A DNA stretch of 64,000 bases. Source: Sphingopyxis sp. LC81 (GTDB taxonomy: Bacteria; Pseudomonadota; Alphaproteobacteria; Sphingomonadales; Sphingomonadaceae). A program made the translations under genes and the position numbers. Location of the stretch: assembly GCF_000756375.1 (NCBI RefSeq), contig NZ_JNFD01000021.1, positions 1 through 64,000 of the forward strand, given 5' to 3'. The notes under the pieces are model-generated. The model worked only from the letters and a program-made list of their open reading frames with translations. It did no database searches and was not told the origin of the DNA. The stretch's first letter is position 1; the number at the start of each line of letters is the position of its first letter. Positions 2 to 16,342 of the stretch are shown here, piece by piece.

Positions 2-691
2 ATGACCACTCACGAGAACACTCGCTCCCGCCGCTCCGATATCCTCGCTCATCACCGCTCCTCGCAAAGAGCGGCTATCAGCACCCCGCAGCAGCTTCCC
101 GCAAGGCGGCCTTCAGGACACGGTTACGAAACACCGGCCGCGCTTGCCGCAACAGAATCTGCCATCACGCCTGAAGAGCAAATCGATGCTGCCCACGCTA
201 TCCTGACATCAGCACTCCGAGCAGATTTGCTGACACGAATTCTGGAGCAGACGCCCACTTTCTTTGAGCGCGTGATCGTCGATCTGCTGGTGGCGATGGG
301 CTACGGAGGCTCGCACGAGAACGCAGCTATGCGCTTAGGCAAGAGCGGCGACGGCGGTATTGATGGCATCGTTGATGAAGATCGCCTCGGTCTGGATCGC
401 ATTTATATCCAAGCCAAGCGCTATGCGAAACATGTGCCTGTCGGACGGCCGGAAATTCAGGGTTTCGTGGGCAGCCTTGTTGGCTTGGGAGCGACGAAAG
501 GTGTGTTTGTGACGACCTCCACCTTTAGCGCTCCGGCCATCGAGTTCGTGCGTGGCCTGCAACAGCGGGTAATTTTGATCGATGGTGCGAGGCTGAGCGA
601 ATTGATGGTGGAATTCGGCGTGGGCGTCAGGAGTAGTCGCATTGTCGAAGTGAAGCGGTTGGATGAAGATTTTTTCAGCGAGGATAATTAG
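2..691 (+). CDS. Mrr-like restriction endonuclease, N-terminus uncertain
   Basis: Resembles Mrr-family (type IV) nucleases, which cut modified or foreign DNA. The C-terminal Mrr catalytic domain covers about residues 80-205: a helix rich in FFERVIVDLLVAMGYGG, then GDGGIDG (D121) and YIQAKRY (Q137, K139), the D...QxK form of the PD-(D/E)XK active site. The TxEEQIDAA segment before it is also Mrr-like. The first 40 or so residues do not look like the usual winged-helix N-domain, and the frame opens at the second base of the window, so the true start may lie outside or the N-terminus may be eroded. It lies 239 bp upstream of hsdM on the same strand and probably belongs to the same defence island. 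The family call is firm; the start and activity are not. Confidence 0.75.
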   Translation: MTTHENTRSRRSDILAHHRSSQRAAISTPQQLPARRPSGHGYETPAALAATESAITPEEQIDAAHAILTSALRADLLTRILEQTPTFFERVIVDLLVAMGYGGSHENAAMRLGKSGDGGIDGIVDEDRLGLDRIYIQAKRYAKHVPVGRPEIQGFVGSLVGLGATKGVFVTTSTFSAPAIEFVRGLQQRVILIDGARLSELMVEFGVGVRSSRIVEVKRLDEDFFSEDN

Positions 692-930: not shown

Positions 931-2478
931 ATGACCAGCCAGCAACAGCGTGACGCATTACACCGACAAATTTGGGCCATCGCTAACGAGGTCAGGGGCG
1001 CGGTCGATGGGTGGGATTTCAAGCAATTCGTACTGGGTGCACTCTTTTATCGCTTCATCAGCGAGAACTTCACCAGCTACATTGAGGCAGGTGATGGCAG
1101 CATCAACTATGCGCGGATGGCAGACGGCGCCATTCCCCAGGAAGCGATCGTCGATGCAGTGAAGACGAAGGGGTACTTCATCTATCCCAGTCAGCTGTTC
1201 GCAAATGTCGCTGCCAGCGCCAACGCCAATGAGAGTCTAAACACTGATCTGGCTGCGATCTTCAAGGCCATTGAAGGGTCGGCGCGCGGCTATCCTTCCG
1301 AAGAAGACATCAGGGGGCTTTTTTCGGATTTCGACACCACCAGCAACCGGCTGGGCAATACGGTCAAGGAAAAGAACGACCGGCTCGCCAAGGTGCTGAA
1401 AGGCGTTGCAGGCTTGCCATTGAAGTTCGAAGAAAATCACGGCGACCTGTTCGGTGATGCCTATGAGTTTCTTATCTCCAATTATGCAGCGAATGCAGGC
1501 AAATCGGGCGGTGAATTTTTTACGCCGCAGCACGTCTCGAAGCTGATTGCGCAGCTGGCGATGCACGGACAGGCGAGCGTAAACAAGATTTACGATCCAG
1601 CCGCTGGTTCCGGCTCCCTGCTGTTGCAGGCCAAGAAGCACTTCGATGATCATATCATTGAAGATGGCTTCTTCGGTCAAGAGATCAACTACACCACCTA
1701 CAACCTAGCCCGCATGAACATGTTCTTGCACAATGTGAACTATGACAAGTTCAAAATCCAGCACGGCAACACGCTGGAAAATCCTCATTTCCTTGATGAG
1801 AAGCCGTTCGACGCCATCGTTTCGAACCCGCCTTACTCCGTCAGGTGGAAGGGATCGGATGACCCGACCCTGATCAACGATGAACGCTTCGCTGCGGCTG
1901 GCGTGCTGGCCCCCAAGTCCAAGGCTGACTTTGCATTTGTGCTGCACGCGCTGCACTACCTGTCAGCCAAGGGGCGCGCGGCCATCGTTTGCTTTCCCGG
2001 CATCTTCTATCGCGGCGGGGCGGAGCAGAAAATCCGCAAATATCTGGTCGACAGTAATGTCGTCGAGACCGTGATCGCGCTCGCGCCCAATCTTTTTTTC
2101 GGCACGACCATTGCAGTCAACATTCTGGTTCTGGCCAAGAACAAGACCGACACCAAGGTGCAGTTTATCGACGCGACACGAGAGAATGAGTTTTTCCGCA
2201 AGGGCACTAACACCAACGTCATGGAAGACCGGCACACTGACCGGATCATCGAGATTTTCGCCAGCAAGGAGAACGAGCCTCACGTTGCCGCAACGGTCGA
2301 TCAGGTTGACATCGTTGGCAAAGACTACAACCTCTCGGTCAGCGCCTACGTGGAGCCGAAAGACACGCGCGTTAAGACCAATATCGCCCAGCTCAATGCC
2401 GAGCTGAAAACCACCGTTGGGAACATTGATAGGCTGCGCACCGAGATTGATGCGATTGTCTCGGAGATCGAAGCGTGA
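931..2478 (+). CDS. hsdM: Type I restriction-modification DNA methyltransferase subunit HsdM
   Basis: N6-adenine methyltransferase subunit of a type I system; two copies join HsdS to form the modification enzyme. An N-terminal HsdM_N helical domain (about 1-150) precedes the methyltransferase fold (about 160-470). The SAM-binding motif I is DPAAGSG from D222 and the catalytic motif IV is NPPY at 299-302. At 515 residues it matches the type IC subunit (EcoR124I family, about 520). Its stop overlaps the GTG start of hsdS in a GTGA, so the two are translationally coupled. It heads the four-gene unit hsdM-hsdS-prrC-hsdR, the order of the E. coli prr locus. Base composition is lower in GC than the core genes to the right, consistent with acquisition by transfer. 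Confidence 0.96.
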
Positions 2479-3761
2479 GCGATTCGGGCTTTCTTGAGAA
2501 GCTGCTCGATGGAGCGGAGGTTAAGTGGAAGCCGCTGGAGGATGTGACGCTTCCGACAAGCAACATTAAGTGGGCCGACACTGATCAAACCTATCGGTAT
2601 ATCGATTTGACATCGGTTCACCGTGAGACAGGGACAATTTCAGAGGCCAAAGAGATAACGGCGGAAACGGCCCCTAGCCGGGCTCAAAAGCTCGTTAAAA
2701 CCGATGATCTGATTTTCGCGACGACGAGACCAGCACAGCAAAGGTTTTGCCTGATTTCCCCTGATTGGTCCGGCGAAGTTGCCAGCACGGGTTACTGTGT
2801 CCTCCGCCCAGATCAATCGAGGGTTCTACCCGGCTGGCTCCTTCACTGGATAAGTTCTTCCCAGTTTAAGGCTTATGTCGAAGAAAACCAAAGCGGTTCG
2901 GCCTATCCGGCAATTTCTGACGGAAAAGTAAAAGCTTTCGAAATCCCTATCCCCTGTCCGGACGATCCGGAGAAGTCGCTGGCGATACAGGGGGAGATTG
3001 TTCGGATTTTGGACAGGCTCACCGAGCTGACCACCGAGCTGACCACCGAGCTGACCACCGAGCTTGAAGCGCGCAAGAAGCAATACAACCACTACCGCGA
3101 CCAGCTTCTGACCTCTGAGGATGGTGAGATCGAGTGGTTGCCTATGGAGCACATCGGTGAGTTCGTCAGGGGCAAGCGGTTTACCAAGGCAGACTATCGG
3201 GATGAAGGTATCAGGGCGATCCACTACGGAGAAATCTACACGCACTATGGTGTGTTCGCCAGCGAGACGCTCTCCAAGGTGAGAGCCGACATGGCGAACT
3301 CTCTGCGCTTTGCTGAGAAGAATGATGTCGTCATGGCCGGGGTAAGCGAAACGCTCGAAGACGTTGGCAAAGCCGTTGCTTGGCTAGGTGACGACAAAGT
3401 CGCAATCCACGATGATAGCTATGCGTTTCGCCACCCAATGAATCCCAAGTATATTGTATATACTATGCAAACTGACGCGTTCCATGATCAGAAAGGTCAG
3501 TTCGTCTCAAGGGGTAAGATCAAAAGGCTTTTGATCGATGGGATGAAGAAGGTGAAATTGCCAATCCCGTTCCCAGATGATCCGCAAAAATCCCTCGCGG
3601 AGCAAGCCCGTATCGTCGCGATCCTCGACAAGTTCGACGCTCTGACCACGTCGCTCACCAAAGGTCTGTCGCGCGAAATCGAACTGCGTCGAAAGCAGTA
3701 TGAATATTACCGCGACCTTCTCCTGACCTTCCGCAAACCGGCCGAGGCCGCTGAGGCATGA
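2475..3761 (+). CDS. hsdS: Type I restriction-modification specificity subunit HsdS (type IC)
   Basis: DNA target-recognition subunit. Two recognition domains (about residues 1-175 and 210-395) are each followed by a conserved helix ending in similar words, [12 protein letters not shown] and [14 protein letters not shown], the internal symmetry expected of HsdS. In the central conserved region residues 183-198 read TELT three times and then TELE. In EcoR124I and EcoDXXI, copy number of the equivalent TAEL repeat in this place sets the length of the unspecified spacer in the bipartite target. The GTG start overlaps hsdM. The stop overlaps the prrC start in an ATGA. The recognition sequence cannot be predicted from the protein alone. 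Confidence 0.95.
3021..3065 (+). repeat. 12-bp tandem repeat in the HsdS central region
   Basis: Three perfect copies of ACCGAGCTGACC (3021-3032, 3033-3044, 3045-3056) and a partial fourth (3057-3065). Each unit encodes four residues, so gain or loss of a unit keeps the frame but lengthens or shortens the helical spacer between the two recognition domains. Confidence 0.95.
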
Positions 3762-4960
3762 GCCAGAGTCTGGAACAGATTGCGCAGGCGCTTCACGAAA
3801 CCAACAAGAAGGTTCAACTGATTTATGCCTTCAACGGGACCGGCAAAACCCGCCTCTCCCGCGCTCTGAAGGGACTGGTTTCACCCAAAATAGAGGGCGA
3901 TGAAGCGCCGCAGCCATCACGGCATAAAATCCTATACTACAACGCCTTCACGGAAGATCTTTTCTATTGGGACAACGACCTACTTGGAGATGCCGAACCC
4001 AAGCTGAGGATCCAGGCGAACAGCTTCACCGACTGGATTTTGCGCGAACAGGGGCAGGAGCCGAACATCGCGCGGAACTTCCAACGCTATACCAATGACA
4101 AGCTAACCCCACGTTTCAACGAGGAATACAAAATCGCTGGCGCTGATGGAAGAGAGGTGACCGTTCCCGCTCTGTCCGAAGTCACATTTTCAATGGCGAC
4201 GGGTGGCGATAATTCGTCTGAAAACTTTAAGATTTCCAAGGGTGAAGAAAGCAACTTCATCTGGAGTGTGTTCTACACGCTGCTTGAAACCGTGATCGAT
4301 GTCCTGCAGGAGCCGGAGGCGGAGCTGAGAAGTACCGCGGACTATGACCAGCTGCAATACATCTTCGTCGATGATCCCGTCACCTCGCTGGATGAAAATC
4401 ATCTGATTGAGCTGGCGGTCGACCTCGCTGCATTGATCAGCCGGGCGCCCGAAGGGCTGAAGTTCGTTATCACAACGCACAGTCCACTTTTTTACAACGT
4501 ATTGCATAACGAGCTGAATATGAAACAGGGGAATAAGAAGGAGGGCTGTCGGCTGCTAGAACTGCTGGAAGACGGCACCTTCAGGCTCGATGTCAAACAC
4601 GGCGATTCGAACAGGAGCTTTTCCTATCATCTGTATCTGCGCAGGGTGCTTGCAGAGGCTATCGAACAGGGCACGGTCGAGCGATTCCACTTTATGTTTC
4701 TGCGGAACATGTACGAAAAGACAGCGGCTTTTCTGGGTTATCAAAATTGGGGTGATCTGCTGAGCACCGTGCCCGGCGCTGATGCTCCGGGAGCCAAGGA
4801 AGGATACCTGAACAGGGTGATGCAATTCTCCAGCCATTCAACCCTGTCGGGAGAACAGGTTCGCGAACCGACGGGGCCGGAAAAGCAGACGGTCAAACTG
4901 CTGTTCGAAAACCTGGTTAACAACTACGGCTATTGGCAGCAGGAAGCGCAAGATGGTTGA
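3758..4960 (+). CDS. prrC: PrrC-type tRNA anticodon nuclease
   Basis: Latent ribonuclease of the PrrC family. In E. coli it is held inactive by the type IC enzyme encoded around it and, when phage T4 disables that enzyme, cuts tRNA-Lys at the anticodon. The N-terminal two thirds is an ABC-type ATPase: Walker A FNGTGKT (25-31, K30), signature SKGEES (160-165), Walker B YIFVDDP (201-207), D-loop TSLD, and H241 in TTHSP. The nuclease part keeps the residues mapped in E. coli PrrC: R316 and E320 in LRNMYEK and H360 in FSSHSTLS (family R320, E324, H356), plus D283 in HGDSN. It has 400 residues against 396 in E. coli, with a shorter N-terminus and a small insert before the active-site His. It overlaps hsdS by 4 bp and hsdR by 8 bp. 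Nothing visible suggests inactivation. Confidence 0.95.
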
Positions 4961-7900
4961 GCAGACCAAGCCAATAGCGGAATCGAAGAACTTCATCGTT
5001 CTCGACAGATACACTAGCGAGTGGACTGCTGCGGATCACTACCAAAGCGAGGCCGAACTTGAACGCGAGCTAATCGAAGACCTGCGTAGCCAGGGCTATG
5101 AGTTCCTGCCCAATCTCACCTCGCCGGAGGCCATGCTGGCCAACGTGCGGGTGCAGCTGGAAGACCTCAACAACGTCCCTTTCTCAGATGACGAGTGGGC
5201 GCGTTTTGTCCTGTCCTATCTGGACAGCCCCAGCGACGGGATCACGGACAAGACCCGCAAGGTGCACGATGACTTCATCCATGATTTTGTATTCGACGAT
5301 GGGCGCATTCAGAACATCTACCTGTTCGACAAGGGCAATATCGCGCGCAACAAGCTGCAAATCATCAAGCAGTTCGAGCAGATTGGGACGCATGCCAACC
5401 GATACGATGTGACGATCCTCGTCAACGGTTTGCCTATGGTGCAGATCGAGGTGAAGAAGCGCGGCGTGGCCATTCGCGAGGCTTTCAATCAAATTCACCG
5501 ATATAGCAAAGAGAGCTTCAACAGCGACAATTCGCTCTACAAGTTTCTCCAGCTCTTCGTGATCTCGAATGGCACAGACACACGCTATTTCGCCAACACG
5601 ACAAAGCGCAACAAGCACAGCTTCGACTTCACAATGAACTGGGCCAAGGCCGACAACGGGCTCATCAAGGACCTTAAGGACTTCACGGCTACGTTTCTGC
5701 AGAAGCACACGCTTCTTAACGTGCTGCTGCACTACTCCGTCTTCGATGTGAGCGAGACGCTGCTGGTCATGCGTCCCTACCAGATCGCCGCGACCGAGCG
5801 CATCTTGTGGAAGATCAAAAGCTCGCACAATTCGAAGTCCTGGAGAAAGCCGGAGGGCGGCGGGTATATCTGGCACACGACTGGTTCGGGCAAGACGCTG
5901 ACCAGCTTCAAAGCGGCGCGCCTGGCCACGGAGCTCGATTTCATCGACAAGGTCTTCTTCGTCGTCGATCGCAAAGATCTCGATTTCCAGACGATGAAGG
6001 AATACCAGCGGTTCTCGCCCGACAGCGTAAATGGCTCCGAGAACACGGCTGCGCTCAAGCGCAATCTGGCCAAGGACGATAACAAGATCGTCGTTACGAC
6101 CATTCAGAAGCTCAACAATCTGATGAAGAGCGAAAGCGACCTCCCGATCTATGGCAAGGAAGTTGTTTTCATTTTCGACGAATGCCACCGCAGCCAGTTT
6201 GGCGAAGCGCAAAGGAACCTGAAAAAGAAGTTCAAGCGCTTTTATCAGTTTGGGTTCACCGGCACGCCCATCTTTCCGGAAAATGCGTCAGGCGCAGAGA
6301 CGACTGCGAGCGTCTTTGGCCAAGAACTCCACTCCTATGTCATCACCGATGCGATCCGGGATGAGAAGGTCCTGAAGTTCAAGGTGGACTACAATGATGT
6401 GCGTCCGAAGTTTCGGCACATCGAGAAAGAGCAGGATGAGGCCAAGCTCAGCGCGGCTGAGAATAAACGGGCGTTGCTGCACCCCGAGCGGATACGGGAG
6501 GTTTCCCAGTACATTTTAAACAACTTCCGGCAGAAAACCCACCGGACCAAGCTCGGAAGCGGGGGGTTCAATGCGATGTTTGCGGTCAGCAGCGTGGACG
6601 CTGCAAAGCTGTATTACGAAACGCTCAACGCGCTTCAGGAAGGCAGTGAAAAGCCGCTCAAGATCGCAACGATCTTTTCGTTCGCTGCCAACGAAGAGCA
6701 GAACGCAATTGGTGAGATTCAGGATGAGAGCTTTGACGTGTCCGCGATGGCCAGCAGCGGCAAAGAGTTCCTGAACGCTGCCATCTGCGACTACAACGCG
6801 CAGTTTGGCACCAGCTTCAGCACGGACGGCAACGGCTTTCAGAACTACTATCGCGATCTCGCCAATCGGGTGAAGTCGAAGCAAGTGGATCTGCTGATAG
6901 TGGTGGGGATGTTTCTCACCGGTTTTGACGCTCCATCGCTCAACACGCTTTTCGTCGATAAAAACTTGCGCTTCCACGGCCTTATCCAAGCCTATTCGCG
7001 CACCAACCGTATATTCGATGCGACCAAAACCTTCGGCAACATCATCGCTTTTCGTGATCTTGAGCAGGCTACTATCGATGCGATCACGCTGTTTGGCGAC
7101 AGTAACACCAAAAACGTGGTATTGGAGAAGAGCTTTCGGGAGTACATGGAGGGCTTCTCGGACATAGCATCCGGTGCCGCTAGTCGGGGCTTCAAAGCCA
7201 TCTTAGCTGAGTTGCAGACGCGCTTCCCTGACCCGGCTGCGATCGTCAAAGAGGCAGACAAGAAGGAGTTCGCAAAACTCTTCGGCGAATTCCTCAGGGC
7301 TGAAAACATTCTTCAGAACTTCGATGAGTTCGTTGCTCTAAAGGCCTTCCAGAATGTGGACCAGAGCGACGCAGCCGCAGTGGAAGATTTCAAAGAGCGG
7401 CATCATCTTGATGATGAGAATGTCAAAGAGCTGGCTTCGATAACGCTTCCGGCCGAGAGGAAGGTTCAAGACTACAAGTCCGCCTATAATGATATTCGTG
7501 ACTGGCTCAGGCGCGAGAAAGCAGCAGCAGAAGCCGAAGAGTCCTCGCTCGACTGGGACGATGTGGTCTTCGAGGTTGATCTTCTGAAGTCCCAGGAAAT
7601 CAACCTAGACTACATTCTGGAGCTTATTTTCGAGAAGAATCGAAGCACAAAGGACAAAAGCGGTCTTATCGACGAAGCTCGGCGACTCATCCGATCAAGC
7701 CTGGGCAACCGAGCAAAGGAGAGCCTGATTGTCGATTTTATCAACCGCACCAATCTCGATGAAATTGAAGGTAAGGAGGGAGTCATCGAGGCATTCTTCG
7801 CATTTGCTCAAGAGGAACAGCTCCGCGAGTTCGATGAGCTTGTCACGACAGAAAATCTGAATCGAGAGGCGGCAAAGCGGTATGTCGTTAGCTCTATCAG

Positions 7901-8054
7901 ACGCGAATTCGCGACCGACAGCGGAAACGCCCTGAACGACATTTTGCCAAAGATGAGCCCATTGAACCCCGCCTATCTGACAAAAAAGAGCTCCGTCTTC
8001 CAGCGTGTGTCGGACTTTGTCGCAAAATTCAAAGGCGTTGGCGGTCAGCTGTAG
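4953..8054 (+). CDS. hsdR: Type I restriction endonuclease motor subunit HsdR
   Basis: Translocates DNA using ATP and cleaves it away from the recognition site. The nuclease site is D152 (RYDVT), E166 and K168 (IEVKK), with QIHRY at 180-184, almost at the same residue numbers as in EcoR124I. The helicase domains follow: Walker A TGSGKT (310-315, K314), DEAD-like FDECH (D409-E410), and later motifs including [11 protein letters not shown] and YSRTNR. A helical C-terminal part contacts the methyltransferase. Length is 1033 residues, very close to EcoR124I HsdR. The start overlaps the prrC stop by 8 bp, so it is probably translated by coupling. Intact in every respect visible. Confidence 0.96.
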
Positions 8055-8383
8055 CGCAACGCTGCTAAAAGCGTCCGAACTAGGAGTCGATCAAAGAAAG
8101 AGGCGACGCGAAGTTGCCGTCGCGCCGCCCATACGAGGATGATGCATCCTTCGTCCCACCATCCTGACTTGCCGGGGTCGCTAATCGTCAAGCCCGGACG
8201 GAAGTTGCCGAGCCCGATAATATCGCTTCTGACCCTCGGATTGTACGAAAGCGCCAAATCGTATGCCTTGGATATGGTTTCCTTGCCGCGCGGAATGAGC
8301 CGATAGGAGGACGGACTGCCAACTCGGGCGCGGCGGCTCTGATCGTAGCCACAGTTCGCGGTTAGGTCGCATTTCTCACGCAA
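8045..8383 (-). CDS. doubtful small ORF convergent with hsdR
   Basis: A 112-residue frame on the opposite strand that ends inside the last codons of hsdR. I recognise no family. The middle ([18 protein letters not shown]) looks protein-like, but there is no clear ribosome binding site and no partner gene. It may be a gene remnant or chance. Confidence 0.25.
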
Positions 8384-8494
8384 GTTTCGGCGTTCGATCG
8401 TTCACGCGGATAGCGCGGGTTCGCTCCACCTGTTCTGCAGAACCATCCCCGGCGACGGGCGATGTGACCTGGACCGGCGCGGCGCCCCGCGAAA

Positions 8495-8574
8495 GTGCGG
8501 CGGCGCGATTATTTCCCCAACTGCTGCGCAGTCTCCTCGCGGCCGCTTCGCTTCAAATAATCGCGCCGCTGCAC
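8495..8574. promoter_or_regulatory. 20-bp inverted repeat in the leader of the DUF736 gene
   Basis: Left arm GTGCGGCGGCGCGATTATTT (8495-8514) and right arm 8555-8574 are reverse complements with one mismatch, separated by 40 bases. They lie 110-190 bp before the DUF736 start. The stretch 8384-8683 holds no convincing gene and is dense in GC-rich self-complementary sequence, so a structured leader RNA or a protein-binding operator is plausible. Confidence 0.6.
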
Positions 8575-8683
8575 TCCTCCGCATTCGCTGCGGCCCTCAC
8601 GGGTTCGCGGGTCACCTCATGCGCCGGCCCTTGGTCCGCCTATGCCGCAGGGATGGTCCCGCGGCTTCTCAAGGAGACGACCA

Positions 8684-9007
8684 ATGGCAGCTATCGGCTT
8701 TGTAAACGGCACCATCGAACAGGGCTTCGTGGGCCAGCTGAAAACCCTTTCGATCCGCGCGGCGATCGAAATCCGGACCAACCGCTCGAAAGCGGGCGAC
8801 GTCCAGCCCGACTATCGGGTGTATTCCGAAGGCGTCGAGATCGGGGCCGGCTGGATCCGCGTCGGACAGGTATCGCGTGAGCCCTATGTGTCGCTGAGCC
8901 TCGCGGCTCCCGAGTTCGGGCCGCGCCGCCTCTATGCGAACCTCGGCCGTGCCGCCGGCCAGGATGGCGAAGATGGCTACGCGCTCATCTGGAACCCGGT
9001 CGACTGA
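8684..9007 (+). CDS. DUF736 family protein
   Basis: A 107-residue protein of the DUF736 family (pattern IGFVNGTI...GQLKTLSI...YRVYSEGVEIGAGW), small single-domain proteins of unknown biochemical role found almost only on alphaproteobacterial plasmids and integrative elements, often beside tra genes. The start at 8684 is chosen over an upstream in-frame ATG (8642) because AAGGAGA lies at 8671-8677, at the right distance, and the family begins with MAxIG. It is preceded by a long structured leader. It marks the left side of the transfer module. No catalytic motif is visible. Confidence 0.9.
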   Translation: MAAIGFVNGTIEQGFVGQLKTLSIRAAIEIRTNRSKAGDVQPDYRVYSEGVEIGAGWIRVGQVSREPYVSLSLAAPEFGPRRLYANLGRAAGQDGEDGYALIWNPVD

Positions 9008-9063
9008 GGCGGGCTTCCACCCCGCGCCGCAGATGCGGCGCGGGGCTTCGCCGTGCCCAGGAC

Positions 9064-9285
9064 CTACGGGGCATCGTTCGGGAGGTCGGCCACGGTGAAG
9101 CTGATCGGGCTGTTGTACCATGCGGTCACGTGGGACTCGCGCCAGCCGCAGCGACGCTCGCTGATCTTGATCTGAGGCGGGAAGGTGCCCGCGGCAATTT
9201 TGCGATAGAGCGTCGCCCGGCTGAGCGAGGTGCGCTTGAGTACTTCGGGAAGGCGAAGGAACCGGTCGGGGGTGTGTGATATCAT
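9064..9285 (-). CDS. AlpA-family regulator / excisionase-like protein
   Basis: A 73-residue DNA-binding protein of the AlpA/Xis class (MerR-like winged helix). The helix-turn-helix is RLPEVLKRTSLSRATLYRKI followed by GTFPPQIKI, the standard AlpA pattern. In P4-like phages and integrative elements such proteins activate integrase expression or bend DNA for excision. The start at 9285 is preferred to in-frame ATGs at 9315 and 9300 because GGAG lies 9 bases before it. The gene points away from ArdC. A 12-bp palindrome and three 10-bp direct repeats lie upstream and may be its own sites. No integrase is visible nearby. Confidence 0.85.
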   Translation of the reverse strand: MISHTPDRFLRLPEVLKRTSLSRATLYRKIAAGTFPPQIKISERRCGWRESHVTAWYNSPISFTVADLPNDAP

Positions 9286-9314
9286 GAGTGTGTTCTCCAT
9301 ATGCTGGTGGTTCA

Positions 9315-9326
9315 TACGTCGACGTA
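9315..9326. promoter_or_regulatory. 12-bp palindrome upstream of alpA-like gene
   Basis: Perfect palindrome TACGTCGACGTA about 30 bp before the chosen AlpA start. Position and symmetry suit an operator or promoter element; this is inferred from sequence alone. Confidence 0.4.
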
Positions 9327-9411
9327 AGACTATAGAAGGGGACGACCGCGCCTATCGTCAACGCCGCAGAAAACCACGCGTTCGGGCGTAGTGCGAGAGC
9401 GTAGTTCCGTG

Positions 9412-9440
9412 GGCATCCGTAGGCATCCGCAGGCATCCCA
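9412..9440. repeat. three 10-bp direct repeats upstream of alpA-like gene
   Basis: GGCATCCGTA, GGCATCCGCA and GGCATCCCA follow one another without gaps, one DNA turn each. Such phased repeats are typical of binding sites for small recombination or replication proteins. Confidence 0.5.
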
Positions 9441-9814
9441 GGGCAGCTTCGAACCACCCCGGCGCATCTTGCGATTATTATTCTCATAGTGTCCCGGACC
9501 GCACGGCCGCGTTCCCGAAAGTCGCGCCGCGACCGGCGCGGCGCTTTCCGATTCGCAGGTTTCGGACGCCTTCGGCGTCCAATCGGTCGCCGCTTGCGCG
9601 GCGGCGTTGATGATCCCCGGCAAGACGGGGGCAGGGTGGGCGTCACTCGCCTTAGCCCCGCCCGGCCGGGCCGCAACCCGCGTGCCGCGGGTCCTGCTCT
9701 TCGTTCCGGTCCTTCGGATGCAGCCCGCCCGATGATGCGGGTCTCCCTTCTCCTTCCTGCCGCCCACCCCGCCCCCTTCCGGGCCGGGGTGCGGTGGCTG
9801 GAAGGAGAAGGGTC
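9441..9814. other. GC-rich gene-free leader of ardC with hairpins
   Basis: No gene supported. It holds perfect hairpins GGACGCC-TTC-GGCGTCC (9564-9580) and ACCCGCG-TGC-CGCGGGT (9676-9692), and pyrimidine-rich runs mirrored by purine-rich runs near 9745-9811. It ends in the strong ribosome binding site GAAGGAGAAGG of ardC. Probably an untranslated leader with regulatory structure. Confidence 0.5.
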
Positions 9815-10708
9815 ATGCGTAAAGAAAGGATCGAACGGGCCAGCCTCTACAGCGAGGTCACCAACCGGATCATCGTTGAGCTCGAAGAAGGGCGGCTGCC
9901 TTGGGTGCAGCCTTGGGATAGCGCGGCGTGCGGATGCACGATGCCGCAGAACGCGGGAACCGCCCGCAAGTATAGCGGCATCAATGTCTTGATCCTGTGG
10001 GCCGAGGGCATTGCCAAGGCCTATGCCTCGCAGCGCTGGCTGACCTACCGGCAGGCCGAGGCGGCGGGTGGCAATGTTCGGCGCGGTGAGAAGGGCACCG
10101 TCATCTGTTACGCCGACCGGTTCACGCCGAAGGCCGAAGCCGAGGCGGCGCGCGGCGAGGACCGCGAGGCGCGGCAGGTGGCGTTCCTCAAACGCTTTGT
10201 CGTGTTCAACGTCGATCAGTGCGAGGGACTACCCGAAGACTTCACCGCCCCGATGGTCCGCCCCGATCCCGTGCTTGCCATTGCCGAGGCCGATGCGCTG
10301 ATTGCGGCGAGCGGTGCCCGCTTCAACATCGGCGGCGGCGAAGCCTTCTACAGCCCTAGCCATGACTTTGTGCAGGTGCCGCCGCAGTCAGCATTTCACG
10401 AACCGGTGAACTGGTATCGCACCGCGCTCCATGAGCTTGGCCATTGGACCGGCCATGGGAGCAGGCTGGGCCGCGACCAGAAGGGCGGGTTCGGTTCGGA
10501 ATCTTACGCCAAGGAGGAGCTTGTCGCCGAGATGGCGGCGGCGTTTACATGCGCATCGCTCGGCATCGCGCCGACGGTCCGGCATTCGGACTATATAGCG
10601 TCGTGGCTGTCGGTGCTGCGCGATGACGACAAGGCGATCTTTCGCGCCGCGAGTGCGGCGAGCAAGGCGAGTGATTATCTCCTCGCCTTCAAGGGAGATG
10701 ATCGGTGA
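9815..10708 (+). CDS. ardC: ArdC-like antirestriction protein (ssDNA-binding domain plus zincin)
   Basis: A 297-residue ArdC-family protein. In conjugative elements ArdC binds single-stranded DNA and protects incoming DNA from host restriction. The N-terminal DUF1738 domain (about 1-130) shows LPWVQPWD, GINVLILW and RRGEKGTVICYADRF. The C-terminal metallopeptidase-like domain has HELGH at 206-210 in ALHELGHWTGH, a zinc site, with a downstream YAKEELVAEMAA helix. The start at 9815 is supported by GAAGGAGAAGG just upstream; an earlier in-frame GTG at 9794 lacks this. Its stop overlaps the GTG start of the next gene by 4 bp. It sits close to a type I restriction system, a likely barrier it would serve against. 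Confidence 0.92.
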   Translation: MRKERIERASLYSEVTNRIIVELEEGRLPWVQPWDSAACGCTMPQNAGTARKYSGINVLILWAEGIAKAYASQRWLTYRQAEAAGGNVRRGEKGTVICYADRFTPKAEAEAARGEDREARQVAFLKRFVVFNVDQCEGLPEDFTAPMVRPDPVLAIAEADALIAASGARFNIGGGEAFYSPSHDFVQVPPQSAFHEPVNWYRTALHELGHWTGHGSRLGRDQKGGFGSESYAKEELVAEMAAAFTCASLGIAPTVRHSDYIASWLSVLRDDDKAIFRAASAASKASDYLLAFKGDDR

Positions 10709-10953
10709 GCGCGCGCATGTCGCGCGACGACCGGCTGCGCCTGTGGCGCGCCGAGCGCGCCGTTGACCGGATGGAGGAGATGGACCGCAAAATCTTCCTC
10801 GCGATCCGGGTCGAGGAACTCAGCTATCCCGCAATCGCGGAGCGTTTTGGCATCACGGTCGCCGAGGTCGAATGGCATTTTGCGGGCGCGCTTCGCGTCC
10901 TCATGATCGCCATGGACGAAAAGGATCCATGGTGGTGGCGATTCCGCCTTTAG
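10705..10953 (+). CDS. sigma-70 region-4-like helix-turn-helix protein
   Basis: An 82-residue protein with IRVEELSYPAIAERFGITVAEVEWHFAGALRVL arranged like the DNA-binding helix-turn-helix of sigma factor region 4 (family pattern L-Y-xx-IAxxxGIxxxxVExH), without sigma region 2. Such stand-alone proteins are common on sphingomonad mobile elements, and their role is not established. The GTG start overlaps the ardC stop (GTGA), so it is translated with ardC. The tryptophan-rich end (DPWWWRFRL) is notable. Confidence 0.75.
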   Translation: MSARMSRDDRLRLWRAERAVDRMEEMDRKIFLAIRVEELSYPAIAERFGITVAEVEWHFAGALRVLMIAMDEKDPWWWRFRL

Positions 10954-11013
10954 GTGGCCGCGCGAGCCGGATGGCGCTTGCCATCCGGCTCGCGCAATTA
11001 CAGGGTGAAATCA

Positions 11014-11934
11014 ATGCGTACTGACCTTGATCTTCTTCCGGCCAACAAGCAGCGTGAAATCGAGCGTGTGAAGAACATCATCTTCGAGGAGTTCGCCGAC
11101 AGCATCGCGCTAGCGACGCAGAACTGGAAGAAGAAAGGCCGCATCGAGAAGCTGATCCTCTATGGCAGCTACGCACGTGGCGGCTGGGTCGACGAGCCGC
11201 ACACCGCCAAAGGCTATCGCTCCGACTTCGACCTGCTGATCATCGTCAGCGACAAGCGCCTCACCGACAAGGTCGATTATTGGCTGAAGGTCGAGGACCG
11301 GCTCAACCGTGAGCTTGCGATCGACAAGACGCTCCACACCCCAGTGAACTTCATCGTCCACACCATGCAGGAGGTGAACGACGGCCTCGCGCACGGGCGC
11401 TATTTCTTCATGGACATCGCGAAGGACGGCATCGCGCTCTACGAGTTCGACGACAAGGAACTGCATACGCCCAAGCCGAAGACGCCGGAGCAGGCGTTGA
11501 ATATGGCGCGAGAATATTTTGAAGAATGGTTTCCGAGCGCAATGAAGCGCTTCGGGGGCGCCAATTACTATCGCGAGCAGGGTCATCTCAAGGACGCAGC
11601 GTTCGACCTACATCAGGCCGCTGAACGCCTTTATCACTGCGTTCTTCTGGTCTGCACCTTTTACACTCCGCACGTTCACAATTTGGGCTTTCTTCGCACG
11701 CAAGCCGAACGCATCGACATGCGCCTTGTCGATGCCTGGCCGCGGGAAATTAAAGCCGACCGGTCACGCTTCGAAAAGCTCAAAGAGGCTTACGTCAAGG
11801 CTCGCTACTCAAAACACTTCCGGATCACCGAAGAAGAGCTGCTCTGGCTTGGCGAGCGCGTCGAAGAACTGGGGCGTGCGGTTCATGCCATTTGTTCGGA
11901 GCGCATTGCTCTGCTAGAGCGCCAAGCGAAATAA
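11014..11934 (+). CDS. nucleotidyltransferase-HEPN fusion protein
   Basis: A 306-residue fusion. The N-terminal half is a polymerase-beta-type nucleotidyltransferase: GSYARGGW from G51 and the metal-binding pair D71, D73 in SDFDLLII. The C-terminal half (about 175-300) is a HEPN helical domain (ERLYHCVLLVCTFY...HNLGFL...RYSKHF...). Separate MNT and HEPN proteins form toxin-antitoxin pairs in which the NTase AMPylates and silences the HEPN ribonuclease; fusions are known, with less certain roles. Here an R-x3-H (RYSKH) is present rather than the usual R-x4-6-H, so nuclease activity is uncertain. The start at 11014 has only a weak ribosome binding site; GTG 11005 is possible. It stands alone downstream of the ardC/sigma-like pair. 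Confidence 0.85.
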   Translation: MRTDLDLLPANKQREIERVKNIIFEEFADSIALATQNWKKKGRIEKLILYGSYARGGWVDEPHTAKGYRSDFDLLIIVSDKRLTDKVDYWLKVEDRLNRELAIDKTLHTPVNFIVHTMQEVNDGLAHGRYFFMDIAKDGIALYEFDDKELHTPKPKTPEQALNMAREYFEEWFPSAMKRFGGANYYREQGHLKDAAFDLHQAAERLYHCVLLVCTFYTPHVHNLGFLRTQAERIDMRLVDAWPREIKADRSRFEKLKEAYVKARYSKHFRITEEELLWLGERVEELGRAVHAICSERIALLERQAK

Positions 11935-11961
11935 CTTAGCGTTCGAAGGGAAGTGCTCGAA

Positions 11962-12408
11962 ATGGAAGATTCCGAAACGCTGGTCACGCTGACCGCCGAC
12001 ATTGTTGCCGCCCATGTCAGCAACAACAGTGTCGCCATATCGGACATCCCGCTCGTGATCCGGTCGGTGCATGAAGCGCTTGCCGGTCTGGCGTCCGGCG
12101 TCGAACCCGAACCCGAGCCGCAGCAGCCTGCGGTGTCGGTTCGTGCATCGGTGAAGCCCGACTATATCGTCTGCCTCGAAGACGGCAAAAAGCTCAAGAT
12201 GATGCGCCGCCATCTGATGACGCACTATGGCATGACCCCCGAAGACTATCGCGCGAAGTGGATTTTGCCGAAGGACTATCCGATGGTCGCGCCGAATTAT
12301 GCCGAGAAGCGTCGGGTTCTCGCCAAGCAGATCGGTCTCGGAACCAAGGGGCGCGGGGGCGGCCGCAAGCCCGCAGCGCGTGGGCGCAGTGGCGCTAAGG
12401 GCAAATAG
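11962..12408 (+). CDS. Ros/MucR family transcriptional regulator
   Basis: A 148-residue zinc-finger-like repressor of the Ros/MucR family, which controls virulence, exopolysaccharide and conjugation genes in alphaproteobacteria. The DNA-binding segment is YIVCLEDGKKLKMMRRHL followed by MTHYGMTPEDYRAKW. The second zinc Cys of Ros is replaced by Asp (C-L-E-D), as in several known family members. The C-terminus is basic and Gly/Arg-rich. The start at 11962 is preferred to GTG 11953 because GAAGGGA (11946-11952) is then well spaced. Probably regulates the transfer genes next to it; that is inference. Confidence 0.9.
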   Translation: MEDSETLVTLTADIVAAHVSNNSVAISDIPLVIRSVHEALAGLASGVEPEPEPQQPAVSVRASVKPDYIVCLEDGKKLKMMRRHLMTHYGMTPEDYRAKWILPKDYPMVAPNYAEKRRVLAKQIGLGTKGRGGGRKPAARGRSGAKGK

Positions 12409-12466
12409 TCTGTAGGCAAATCTCGCTGACATCGGTGATGGGGGACTGCTTATCACACTTAAGATA

Positions 12467-12634
12467 GTGGCAGCGGCGACCATTTTCCTGTTCGCTTCGG
12501 GATGTTCGGCTCGGTCCGAGCCCGCCAAAGTTCCTGAAGTTGAACGGGGTGCGATCGACTTCGAATCGGTTGATCCGCCGCGCGCGCAGATTGGCGCCGA
12601 TGCCACGGCGACAGAAGAAGCGACGCTCGACTGA
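12467..12634 (+). CDS. small putative lipoprotein
   Basis: A short gene of about 55 residues: a hydrophobic lead (VAAATIFLFASGC) ending in a lipobox-like ASGC, then an acidic, proline-containing tail. No ATG is available in frame. GTG 12467 is used here; the hydrophobic lead extends upstream in frame (LLITLKIV), so an unusual earlier start is possible. It lies between mucR and the convergent traD. Small lipoproteins of this type often occur beside tra genes, sometimes as entry-exclusion or lysis factors, but nothing here shows a function. Confidence 0.5.
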   Translation: MAAATIFLFASGCSARSEPAKVPEVERGAIDFESVDPPRAQIGADATATEEATLD

Positions 12635-12650
12635 CCGCCAGCCGCTACAA

Positions 12651-12917
12651 TCAATTTTCCGGACCGAAGGCGCGCCGCCCCCGGCGGCGCCATAATGCTA
12701 ATTGCTGTTCGCGCTCGGCGCCGCGCAGCTTCGCGCCCGCCTCGACAAGAATGCCGAGGATCACCGCGCGATTGTCACCTGTCAGCTCGATCAGATCGGC
12801 CTTGGCGACGAGGCCGCCAAGTTCGATCAGCTGGCGCGTGCGTTCGCGGCGCTTCACCTGCCATTCCCGCGTGTCATGCCGCGCCCGCTTCGCCTGAAGG
12901 CGGTTGCTCGCCTGCAC
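12651..12917 (-). CDS. traD: conjugal transfer protein TraD (Ti type)
   Basis: An 88-residue protein ending in the TraD signature: KRRERTRQLIELGGLV, a run over DNRAVILGILVEA, then LALWRRRGRRAF. Ti-type TraD is a small accessory of the relaxosome. The frame is open to 13034 inside traC. The GTG at 12917 is taken as start because conserved sequence begins there; this leaves a 44-bp overlap with traC and no good ribosome binding site, so coupling to traC is likely. In Ti plasmids traG follows traD; here an opposite-strand lipoprotein gene and mucR follow instead. Confidence 0.8.
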   Translation of the reverse strand: MQASNRLQAKRARHDTREWQVKRRERTRQLIELGGLVAKADLIELTGDNRAVILGILVEAGAKLRGAEREQQLALWRRRGRRAFGPEN

Positions 12918-13197
12918 TGTTCGCCGTGCCGCCGCCCGCGTTGCCGACAGCGCCTTTGCGAGCGCGGGCGCGGCCGCCGCGAAAGAAGGTCGCGCCGCTT
13001 TTGCGCCACGCCTCCTTTCGCGAGGTTTCGGCACCGACTGCGTCGAGCAGCGCGCCTGCTAGCTGCTCGATCGATAGCGCATCGGCGCCGGTCGCGGCGA
13101 CCAGTTCGCCGAGCTGGCTCTGCTTCTTCGTCTTAAGCGTCTTTGCCTTGTCGGTGAGGGCCTGGAGTTCGGCATCGAAATCACGCGGTTTACGCAT
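12874..13197 (-). CDS. traC: conjugal transfer protein TraC (Ti type)
   Basis: A 107-residue TraC-like relaxosome accessory protein: MRKPRDFDAELQALTDKA, KQSQLGELVAATGADALSIEQLAGALL and AWRKSGATFF are the conserved parts, followed by an Ala/Gly-rich tail. In Ti-type transfer systems it helps process oriT with TraA. The start at 13197 is fixed by a good ribosome binding site (GGAAGGA) just before it. It diverges from traA, and the predicted oriT lies in the space between, exactly as in Ti plasmids. Confidence 0.85.
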   Translation of the reverse strand: MRKPRDFDAELQALTDKAKTLKTKKQSQLGELVAATGADALSIEQLAGALLDAVGAETSRKEAWRKSGATFFRGGRARARKGAVGNAGGGTANSAGEQPPSGEAGAA

Positions 13198-13312
13198 CGT
13201 CTGTCCTTCCATGTTCGAGGGTCGGACGATCCAGCTATGCCGAATCTCAAAGCCCGGCAAGGTGCTGAAATCTAACGAGATGCTGTGATCCCGAGCGCGA
13301 TGAAATCGTGTG

Positions 13313-13340
13313 AGGGCGCGCTTATACGTCGTGCCGACGT
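13313..13340 (-). other. oriT: predicted origin of transfer (oriT, Q-type)
   Basis: Read on the minus strand this is an inverted repeat ACGTCG-GCA-CGACGT followed by ATAAGCGCGCCCT. The oriT sites of Ti plasmids and RSF1010 have the same plan: a short inverted repeat, then an AT-rich step and a GCGCCCT-type core containing nic. It sits in the traC-traA divergent space, the standard position, 30 bp before the TraA start. Nicking at the GCGCCC core by TraA is inferred. Confidence 0.75.
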
Positions 13341-13369
13341 GCTCGTTTTGCCCTAAATGGATAGCCCTC

Positions 13370-16342
13370 ATGGCGATCTATCATTTCTCGGCAAAAGTGA
13401 TTTCCCGCGCCGCCGGCAGCAGCGCGGTCGCCGCCGCGGCCTATCGGTCGGCCGATCGGCTGCACGACGAACGGCTCGGCCGTGCCCACGACTTCTCGAA
13501 CAAGGCGGGCGTGGTTCATAGCGAAGTCCTGCTCCCCGAAGGAGCGGACGAACGCTGGCAGGACCGCGAGCAGCTCTGGAATGATGTCGAGGCGGCCGAG
13601 CTTCGCAAGGACGCGCAACTCGCGCGCGAGATCGAGTTCGCGATCCCGCGCGAGATGACCGAGAGCCAAGGGATCGAGCTCGCCCGCGACTTTGTGTCAC
13701 GCGAGTTCGTCGATCGCGGAATGATCGCCGATTTGAATGTCCATTGGGACATCGGCGCCGATGGGCTGGCGAAGCCGCACGCACATGTCATGCTGACGAT
13801 GCGCGAGATCCGCGTCGGCGAAGATGGAATCGCCGGGTTCGGCGCCAAGGTGCGCGACTGGAACCGCACCCAACTATTGACCCACTGGCGCGAGGCTTGG
13901 GCGGAGCATGTCAACGAACGGCTTGCCGCGCTCGACATCGATGCGCGCGTCGATCATCGGTCCCTCGAAGCGCAGGGTATCGACCTTGAACCGCAGCACA
14001 AGATTGGCCCGGCGGCCTCGCGCATGGCGGCCGAGGGGCTGGACGCCGATCGGCATGGCGAGCATCTCGAGATCGCCCGGTCGAACGGCGACAAGATCAT
14101 CGCCAATCCATCGATCGCGCTCGACGCGATCACGCACCGGCAGGCCACGTTCACGAACCGCGATCTTGCGACGTTCGTGCACCGGCACAGCGATGGCAGG
14201 GAGCAGTTCGATGCGGTGATGGGCGCGGTGAAAGCATCGCCCGAGCTGGTCGCGCTCGGCAAGGACGGCCGCGGCGAACACCGCTTCACATCGCGCAGCA
14301 TGATCGACACCGAACAGCGCCTCAAACGCGCGACCGCGACGCTCGACATGCGGCGCAATCATGCAGTGCCCGACCGCCAGCGCGACTGGGCGCTTGCGCT
14401 TGCTGCCGAGCGGGGCCTAGACCTCTCCGTCGAGCAGCGCGGCGCGCTCGAACATATCACCAATTCGCGCGGGATCAGCAATGTGATCGGCTATGCCGGG
14501 ACGGGCAAGAGCGCGATGCTCGGTGTCGCACGCGAAGCTTGGGAAGCCGCGGGCTATCAGGTGCAGGGCGCCGCGCTGTCGGGCATTGCCGCCGAAGGGC
14601 TTGAGCAGGGCTCGGGCATCGGCTCGCGCACGCTCGCCAGTCTCGAACATCAGTGGGCCAATGATCGCGAGCGCCTCACCGACAAACATGTCCTCGTCAT
14701 CGACGAAGCCGGCATGGTCGGGACCCGCCAGCTTGAACGCGTCGTGTCGGAAGCCGAGCGACAGGGGGCGAAGGTGGTGCTGGTCGGCGATCCGCAACAG
14801 CTACAGGCGATCGAGGCGGGCGCTGCATTCCGGTCTGTCGCCGAACGCCATGGCGCCGTCGAGATCATGGATATCCGCCGGCAGCAGGAGGACTGGCAGC
14901 GCGAAGCAACTCGCGAGCTTGCCAGCGGGCGCACCGGCGAGGCGATCGGGCGTTACGCGGAGGCTGGCTTTGTGCATGCATCCGAAACGCGCGAAGCGGC
15001 ACGCGCCGAGCTGGTTGATGCCTGGGATCGTGATCGCCAGCATTACCCCGATGTCAGTCGGATCATCCTGACCCACACCAACGACGAAGTGCGGGAGCTT
15101 AATGAGGAGGTGCGGGAGCGTCTGAAAACCGACGGGGCACTTGGCAGAGAGGTGGCGATCACCGTCGAACGCGGCGAGCGAATGTTCGCCGAGAATGACC
15201 GTGTGATGTTCCTGCGGAACGAGCGGAGCATCGGCGTGAAGAACGGCTCGCTCGGCACCGTGCAGAATGTCGACCGGATGCGCATGGCCGTGATGCTCGA
15301 CGACGGGCGCAGCGTGGCGTTCGACCTGAAGGACTATGCACATGTCGATCATGGCTATGCCGCGACGATCCACAAGGCGCAGGGCATGACGGTCGACCGG
15401 GTGCAGGTGCTCGCGACGCCGGGGGTAGACAGCCACTCGACCTATGTCGCGCTGTCCAGGCATCGCGAGCAGGTGGATTTATACTACGGACGCGATGATT
15501 TTGCGAGCCAGAGCAAGCTGGTTCGCGCCGCCTCGCGCGAACGCGGCAAGGATATGGCGAGCGATTATCGTGCGCCTGTACCCGCGAAGGCAGCGGAGCC
15601 GAAGCGCGGCATGTTCGACGGGCTGGATCTGTCGGTCTCGCGCGCCGAGCCTCGGAAAGCGGTGCCCGAGGTCAAGCGGACGGTCAGGCTCGCGGATGTT
15701 CGCGTGAATGCCCGTGCGCTCGATCCGTTGCGGACGCCGTCATCCCTCGAGAAGGCGGTCGAGCGTTTTGCGCGCGTGACGAAGGAGATCGTCGACGTCC
15801 GGCGCGCCGGCGGCAAGGAACTGCCGCACGAGATCGACGCCTATCGCAAGGCGCGGGCCGAGCTCGATGCACTGCGTCCCGGTGGCGCGAGCGATCTGCG
15901 CGAAGCGTTCGGGAAGAGTTACCAGCTGACGAAGGCCGCCGCGGAGGGGCGGACCGCCGGCGCGATCGCGGCGATGGATAGACAGGAAGCGGAGCGCGCG
16001 GCCGAGCGCGTGGTGGCCGAACGCGCGGCGCGCGATCGTGCGCGGCTGGCGGTCCAGGCGAAGCAGCTCGCCGCCGAGACCGAGAAACGCGCCGAGCTGT
16101 TCGTCGCCTCATGGAAGAAAGAAAGCGCGCGGGCGAAGGACGCGCCGACCTTTGCGGCGCGGGATGCAGCGCGCGCCAGCCTATCCGACATGGCGAAGAG
16201 CCTTCATCGCGACCCGCAGCTCGAGTCGCTGCTCCGGAACCGCCGCGCCGAACTGGGGCTGACATCGCGTGCGACAGGAAATTTGTCTCACGACCTCCAG
16301 CAGTGGCTCGGCCGCTCGCGCGGGATCGGAATATCGATGTAG
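13370..16342 (+). CDS. traA: Ti-type conjugative relaxase/helicase TraA
   Basis: A 990-residue relaxase that nicks oriT and unwinds the transferred strand. The N-terminal MobA/MobL domain (about 1-220) has catalytic Tyr Y25 (AYRSADRL) and the metal-binding HAH at 137-139 (KPHAHVML). The RecD-like helicase follows: Walker A GYAGTGKS (374-381, K380), Walker B VIDEAGM (D445-E446), VGDPQQLQAI, and late motifs including HKAQGMTVDRV. A charged helical C-terminus completes it. The start at 13370 matches the conserved MAIYHFSAK opening of the family although no strong ribosome binding site precedes it. The length is somewhat below the 1100 or so of Ti TraA but no domain is missing. Confidence 0.95.
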   Translation: MAIYHFSAKVISRAAGSSAVAAAAYRSADRLHDERLGRAHDFSNKAGVVHSEVLLPEGADERWQDREQLWNDVEAAELRKDAQLAREIEFAIPREMTESQGIELARDFVSREFVDRGMIADLNVHWDIGADGLAKPHAHVMLTMREIRVGEDGIAGFGAKVRDWNRTQLLTHWREAWAEHVNERLAALDIDARVDHRSLEAQGIDLEPQHKIGPAASRMAAEGLDADRHGEHLEIARSNGDKIIANPSIALDAITHRQATFTNRDLATFVHRHSDGREQFDAVMGAVKASPELVALGKDGRGEHRFTSRSMIDTEQRLKRATATLDMRRNHAVPDRQRDWALALAAERGLDLSVEQRGALEHITNSRGISNVIGYAGTGKSAMLGVAREAWEAAGYQVQGAALSGIAAEGLEQGSGIGSRTLASLEHQWANDRERLTDKHVLVIDEAGMVGTRQLERVVSEAERQGAKVVLVGDPQQLQAIEAGAAFRSVAERHGAVEIMDIRRQQEDWQREATRELASGRTGEAIGRYAEAGFVHASETREAARAELVDAWDRDRQHYPDVSRIILTHTNDEVRELNEEVRERLKTDGALGREVAITVERGERMFAENDRVMFLRNERSIGVKNGSLGTVQNVDRMRMAVMLDDGRSVAFDLKDYAHVDHGYAATIHKAQGMTVDRVQVLATPGVDSHSTYVALSRHREQVDLYYGRDDFASQSKLVRAASRERGKDMASDYRAPVPAKAAEPKRGMFDGLDLSVSRAEPRKAVPEVKRTVRLADVRVNARALDPLRTPSSLEKAVERFARVTKEIVDVRRAGGKELPHEIDAYRKARAELDALRPGGASDLREAFGKSYQLTKAAAEGRTAGAIAAMDRQEAERAAERVVAERAARDRARLAVQAKQLAAETEKRAELFVASWKKESARAKDAPTFAARDAARASLSDMAKSLHRDPQLESLLRNRRAELGLTSRATGNLSHDLQQWLGRSRGIGISM

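Follow-up and report, generated by a model that had tools for sequence, protein, structure and literature searches.

Gene content and organization of the operon

The window, by which we mean the whole 64,000-nucleotide stretch of Sphingopyxis sp. LC81 DNA that was analysed, carries near its left edge four open reading frames lying in succession on the forward (+) strand. The first, hsdM (931..2478), codes for a type IC DNA methyltransferase subunit of 515 aa with NPPY at residue 299 and matched the NCBIfam model TIGR00497 (6.6e-182). It is followed by hsdS (2475..3761), a GTG-initiated frame for a type I specificity subunit of 428 aa, in which Pfam Methylase_S was matched over two specificity-domain stretches (1.3e-16), and by prrC (3758..4960), which codes for an anticodon nuclease of 400 aa and gave a full-length family match to PADLOC PDLC02360 (1.1e-138, residues 3-398). 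The last frame, hsdR (4953..8054), codes for a restriction/translocase subunit of 1033 aa of EcoR124 type, with matches to TIGR00348 (NCBIfam, 1.1e-201) and EcoR124_C (Pfam, 2.1e-65); residues 1-1032 could be aligned to the solved EcoR124 HsdR structure (PDB 2w00, 1746 bits), and the enzyme is assigned to type IC on this basis. HsdR has QIEVK at 164, GSGKT at 311 and DECH at 409, which together with the HsdM NPPY we take to be the motifs expected of such subunits. Neighbouring frames overlap by 4 bp (hsdM/hsdS), 4 bp (hsdS/prrC) and 8 bp (prrC/hsdR). A sequence-only reading of this DNA had described this order and these overlaps as the arrangement of the E. coli prr locus, and both the open frames and the family matches agree. 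As judged from its sequence, the operon is an intact type IC restriction-modification (R-M) enzyme of the EcoR124/EcoprrI kind accompanied by a full-length PrrC. Upstream of hsdM, window positions 2-691 code for an Mrr-type restriction endonuclease domain (Pfam, 1e-33) that is possibly truncated by the contig edge, and relatives of this gene were present at 2/80 PrrC loci.

The hsdS gene contains four tandem 12-bp units (ACCGAGCTGACC, the last being a variant) at 3021..3068 (+), identified from the DNA and its translation, that code for 16 residues. These units resemble the type IC spacer repeat, the TAEL repeat of EcoR124, which is reported to be a spacer-length element in EcoR124 and to occur in three copies in EcoDXXI and EcoprrI (PMC3874165). 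A TAEL/TELT run was seen by eye, and not counted, upstream of prrC in many PrrC-linked loci, where up to five pattern matches per locus were displayed over all frames; among the matches listed there was none for L026, L029, L045, L054 and L077. The window system is comparable to EcoR124I/II, both in an HsdR alignable over its full length and in the tandem 12-bp spacer repeat of hsdS, although EcoR124I is described as being without an anticodon nuclease (PMC3014915). Positions 2539-2942, in the first half of hsdS, were the sole part of the operon whose DNA failed to align with the close copy in genome G120, a pattern that an exchange of the first target-recognition domain would produce.

Conservation of the PrrC nuclease

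The predicted PrrC protein (3758..4960, +) is composed of an ABC-ATPase in its N-terminal two thirds and a nuclease in its C-terminal third. The Walker A motif YAFNGTGKT (residues 23-31; 3824..3850, +) includes K30, which was lysine in 82/82 aligned sequences, and the nuclease triad of R316 (4703..4705, +), E320 (4715..4717, +) and H360 (4835..4837, +), equivalent to E. coli R320, E324 and H356, was invariant in the same 82/82. D283 (4604..4606, +) was aspartate in 81/82 and corresponds to E. coli D287, a residue described as contacting the modified wobble base (PMC3014915). Alignment to the 396-aa PrrC of an E. coli plasmid (55.3% identity) placed D283, R316, E320 and H360 all on their counterparts and bore out the earlier proposal that the ATPase motifs and these four residues had been kept. 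RloC, a relative of PrrC, similarly combines an ABC-ATPase with an Arg-x3-Glu...His nuclease triad (PMC2610378), but differs in having a zinc-hook/coiled-coil insert and in being rarely linked to R-M genes; the window PrrC, just 400 aa long, possesses the ABC-ATPase motifs and lacks the RloC-type coiled-coil insert.

In the predicted structure of PrrC, D283 and H360 fall in stretches with pLDDT <50, so the modelled geometry of the active site is of low confidence. Foldseek searches with this model gave PtuA/Septu, retron complexes, Rad50 and SMC heads among the 50 matches listed, with TM-scores of 0.22-0.34 by query length, which would support the ABC-ATPase fold of PrrC and nothing further. 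Sequence and profile searches of the PDB found no PrrC; four weak profile matches (E 0.09 to 0.84) corresponded to two CCR4-NOT entries and to 5da9/5dac (Rad50) and were not used. At L019, L025, L030, L045, L064, L068 and L081 the PrrC match begins at residue 18, after a differing N-terminal stretch.

Linkage and distribution of PrrC operons

Gene linkage was surveyed in the best 80 of 497 PrrC loci found. All four genes were present on one strand in hsdM-hsdS-prrC-hsdR order at 73 of these 80 loci, with HsdM detected in 75/80, HsdS in 79/80 and HsdR in 78/80, and at the seven exceptions, which had one or two genes missing, a contig end lay within ~1.3 kb of prrC or hsdS, on the side where the absent gene would be expected. 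The 8-bp prrC/hsdR overlap was kept in 31/73 four-gene loci; the gap between the two genes did not exceed 60 bp in 53 of the 73, while 4 others had up to 600 bp and the remaining 16 had more than 600 bp. Judging by these loci, the gene arrangement of the window is the usual one for PrrC.

At E 1e-40, PrrC was found in 1/80 genomes of the genus, namely the window's own, and in 5/296 genomes at the level of the order: the window's genome, G120, G066, G265 and G358. G120 was the most similar (PrrC 81%, HsdM 89% and HsdR 86% identical), G066 had a PrrC of 50% identity, and the PrrC sequences of G265 and G358 were ~30% identical. The latter two showed the order hsdR-hsdS-prrC-hsdM with a type I enzyme, its HsdR and HsdM being just 33-40% identical to those of the window and with the hsdS of G358 assigned by position alone. 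In a profile search of 99 genomes, 12 matched PrrC at E 0.001, of which the window's genome and G066 had a near full-length PrrC; the other matches listed were partial, lay inside frames of 761-916 aa and were left uncounted as PrrC. PrrC relatives occurred in 113/72,556 plasmid records, mostly from Klebsiella or Escherichia, and phage records gave no PrrC relative at E 1e-5. The operon has a GC content of 53.3%, against 65.4% for positions 8054-64000.

Short PrrC relatives of 366-369 aa and ~30% identity were observed at the distant loci L143 (7512-8612) and L144 (7407-8516), in type I operons with the order hsdR-hsdS-prrC-hsdM and with the same gene list as PrrC170; inspection by eye showed the L144 protein to differ around the wobble-base aspartate. 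PrrC170 of Klebsiella quasipneumoniae is, like the window PrrC, encoded inside a type I R-M operon (PMC11555353). It is reported to block T1 and T7, to target tRNA-Lys and to be 35% identical to EcoPrrC, while its genes are listed in that source as HsdR, HsdS, PrrC and HsdM, an order that resembles the distant L143/L144 variant and not the window operon (PMC11555353).

Lysine tRNAs of the host

The host genome encodes one tRNA-Lys(UUU) and one tRNA-Lys(CUU) among 42 tRNAs found. An initial pattern match proved to be tRNA-Asn and not tRNA-Lys, and an Rfam tRNA search was used instead; of its 42 matches, 30 and then 11 of the other 12 were examined with ARAGORN, and the one left over is a tRNA-Leu located in the window itself. 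In the host tRNA-Lys(UUU), the anticodon loop (CTTTTAA) and the three loop-proximal stem pairs are those of an E. coli tRNA-Lys. The stem as a whole is stronger than in E. coli, with C28-G42 in place of U28-A42 and A27-U43, the outermost pair, in place of G27-U43. It has been reported that a stable anticodon stem is inhibitory and that most anticodon changes yield very poor substrates (PMC3014915). By this comparison the stem pairs of the host tRNA-Lys(UUU) would be unfavourable for the action of an E. coli-like PrrC.

Lysine codon usage was counted in 22 of 34 script-picked open reading frames from position 22240 onwards, those taken for genes, and AAA made up 80/326 lysine codons in these 22 chromosomal frames of the window. 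The second tRNA-Lys (CUU) means that cleavage of tRNA-Lys(UUU) only might arrest translation partially, and a PrrC that left the CUU tRNA uncut would cause arrest mainly at AAA codons. To our knowledge E. coli is a host in which tRNA-Lys is UUU only.

These numbers bear on the possibility of a working R-M system paired with a PrrC that lacks activity, or has too little effect, in this host; tRNA-Lys(CUU) might for example sustain translation, or PrrC might have become uncoupled from the enzyme. The presence of both tRNA-Lys genes and the share of AAA among lysine codons speak for an ineffective nuclease. Against it, the PrrC frame, the triad and the ATPase motifs are all kept, the closest relatives likewise have an open prrC (77-81% identity), and a partial loss of AAA decoding should already slow translation. 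We consider an inactive or ineffective PrrC improbable, and a nuclease that acts as in E. coli is the reading preferred here.

The mobile-element backbone and the position of ardC

The operon adjoins a mobile element. The right-hand junction between the two lies at 8055..8092, where homology to the G120 operon ends at 8062 and homology to the element backbone starts at 8092/8093, limits that show the R-M operon to be joined within ~40 bp to a conserved backbone. An antirestriction gene, ardC (9794..10708, +), identified by Pfam and by DNA match to genus-mates, starts 1.74 kb beyond hsdR, and a TraA/MobA-type relaxase-helicase gene is found at 13310..16342 (+). Between these two genes, a HEPN/nucleotidyltransferase protein encoded at 10954-11934 (Polbeta 2.4e-06 and HEPN 8.3e-08 in Pfam; HalB at 0.0012, under the cut-off) may come from a further defence gene carried by the element. 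A small frame at 9064-9315 appears AlpA-like by eye and had no NCBIfam match. The left junction of the operon falls outside the contig, which begins at window position 1. In G120 (locus L142), the sequence just 5' of hsdM matched the relaxase in its helicase part alone, at 27-34% identity.

A DNA search with positions 8100-13300 gave some match in 71/79 related genomes, many of them partial. The best backbone matches, in G040, G027 (at two places) and G036, covered 8100-11903 at 81-82% identity with ardC included. Ten stretches from nine genomes, chosen for high-scoring matches that extended to the left end of the query, were taken for comparison out of many more matches; they stop near 9710, and ardC was assigned in these copies by the DNA match, where it extends that far. 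Homology to the window started at 8092 or 8093 in 10/10 stretches, and in 10/10 a match to a ParB-like protein ended 136-167 bp before this point, with a tyrosine integrase (94-100% identity) upstream in 3/10 and a weak relative of it (28%) in one more. The shared backbone order (from window position 8092 on; L151-L160) is a ParB-like gene upstream, followed by ArdC, the HEPN gene and the relaxase. In the window the hsd operon stands upstream of 8092, where these copies have the ParB-like gene. The nine backbone-bearing genomes gave no PrrC at E 1e-40. A ParB-like relative (54% identical) is located elsewhere in the window's genome, on C14, and in one backbone copy, L157, a PADLOC match to ZacC (1041 bits) lies upstream of the ParB-like gene. 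Among plasmid records matching the flank, 6/9 came from Blastomonas, Sphingomonas, Sphingopyxis, Novosphingobium or Sphingobium, in keeping with the earlier description of the copy as a sphingomonad one. By this comparison ardC appears to belong to the mobile-element backbone and not to the R-M system, and the operon is cargo beside a mobilizable backbone that carries ardC.

The earlier reading had taken the adjacency of ArdC as a sign of antirestriction-triggered suicide, in which the ArdC of the element itself, or of an incoming related element, would inactivate the type IC enzyme and free PrrC, the two genes forming an antirestriction sensor pair. Published work lends this some plausibility, as ArdC of R388 is reported to counteract HsdRMS in recipient cells and to be required in the recipient, not in the donor (PMC7213743), and two RloC genes in two genomes were linked to ArdC, with release in the manner of PrrC being suggested in 2008 (PMC2610378). 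At L144 an ArdC relative is also present ~0.3 kb 5' of hsdR. A tblastn search with the window ArdC (E 1e-5) nevertheless found an ArdC relative in the examined flanks of 0/80 PrrC loci, these flanks covering 7 kb or more on the downstream side of prrC in 60/80 and more than 5 kb upstream in 68/80, and of the distant loci L144 alone had both genes, so that no conserved ardC-prrC pairing was seen. Moreover, ardC sits in the backbone of genus-mates that lack prrC, with the operon abutting that backbone at 8092, and an element whose own ArdC freed its own PrrC would be expected to poison a newly entered host. Little evidence therefore points to ArdC as the trigger, and we regard suicide triggered in this way as very doubtful. 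An ArdC link may exist in some lineages, because L144 has an ArdC relative near its hsdR. The type IC operon, the intact PrrC and, by homology, its nature as a latent tRNA-Lys anticodon nuclease are what we retain of the earlier proposal, and a specific link to ArdC is not supported. By DNA search, several genus-mates have sister elements that include ardC. A very unlikely reading is that the operon would act as an exclusion device between related elements, the ArdC of an incoming sister inactivating the resident enzyme, freeing PrrC and aborting the recipient, in which case arrest in a host with UUU and CUU tRNAs would act mainly on AAA-rich transcripts.

Proposed mechanism and relation to known systems

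The hsdM-hsdS-prrC-hsdR operon of the window is very probably an intact type IC R-M system gained by horizontal transfer that would work as prr does in E. coli. For this copy we observed directly the open frames and their order, the conservation of motifs and of linkage, the operon/backbone junction and a suitable host tRNA. Latency, the trigger, tRNA cleavage and phage defence are carried over from work in E. coli and Klebsiella, and the following steps would be expected by that analogy. HsdM, HsdS and HsdR would assemble into the restriction enzyme, to which PrrC would bind and stay latent. A phage product, in E. coli the Stp of T4, would inactivate the enzyme and unmask PrrC with NTP hydrolysis. 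PrrC would then cut tRNA-Lys(UUU) 5' of the wobble base, and translation would stop in the infected cell. Release by some antirestriction factor is likely, again by analogy with T4 Stp.

The E. coli prr system (EcoprrI), which has the same gene order and has been characterised (PMC3014915), shares with the window operon the length of PrrC (400 vs 396 aa), the triad, the D287 equivalent, the ABC motifs, the type IC class and TAEL-like repeats. The differences are the divergence from the E. coli plasmid PrrC, short indels between the motifs, and the second tRNA-Lys(CUU) of the window's host. In the SXT/R391-type element ICEValA056-2 of Vibrio alginolyticus, prrABCD similarly represents a prr-type R-M system with a putative anticodon nuclease in a variable hotspot, although this element belongs to another family and its PrrD is reportedly without similarity to the PrrD of E. 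coli CTr5X (PMC4857294). With this prr operon already in print as cargo of an SXT/R391-type element (PMC4857294), there is a published precedent for prr operons being carried by mobile elements. PrrC-type complexes have also been predicted to be widespread (PMC9296519). Among the matches listed in a search of the open-access literature for PrrC with Sphingomonas or alphaproteobacteria, no title concerned a sphingomonad PrrC; both 'prrC' and 'Sphingomonas' appear in the text of an estuary community study (PMC4322608).

In summary, PrrC as a family, its operon, its mechanism and its carriage as element cargo have all been published before. What the window adds is an undamaged example of a textbook suicide defence in a high-GC host. 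Its sharply placed junction with an element backbone marks off the system (four genes) from its vehicle (ardC and relaxase). Because this host has two lysine tRNAs, it could serve for asking whether PrrC is selective for AAA decoding, which is impossible where tRNA-Lys is UUU only.
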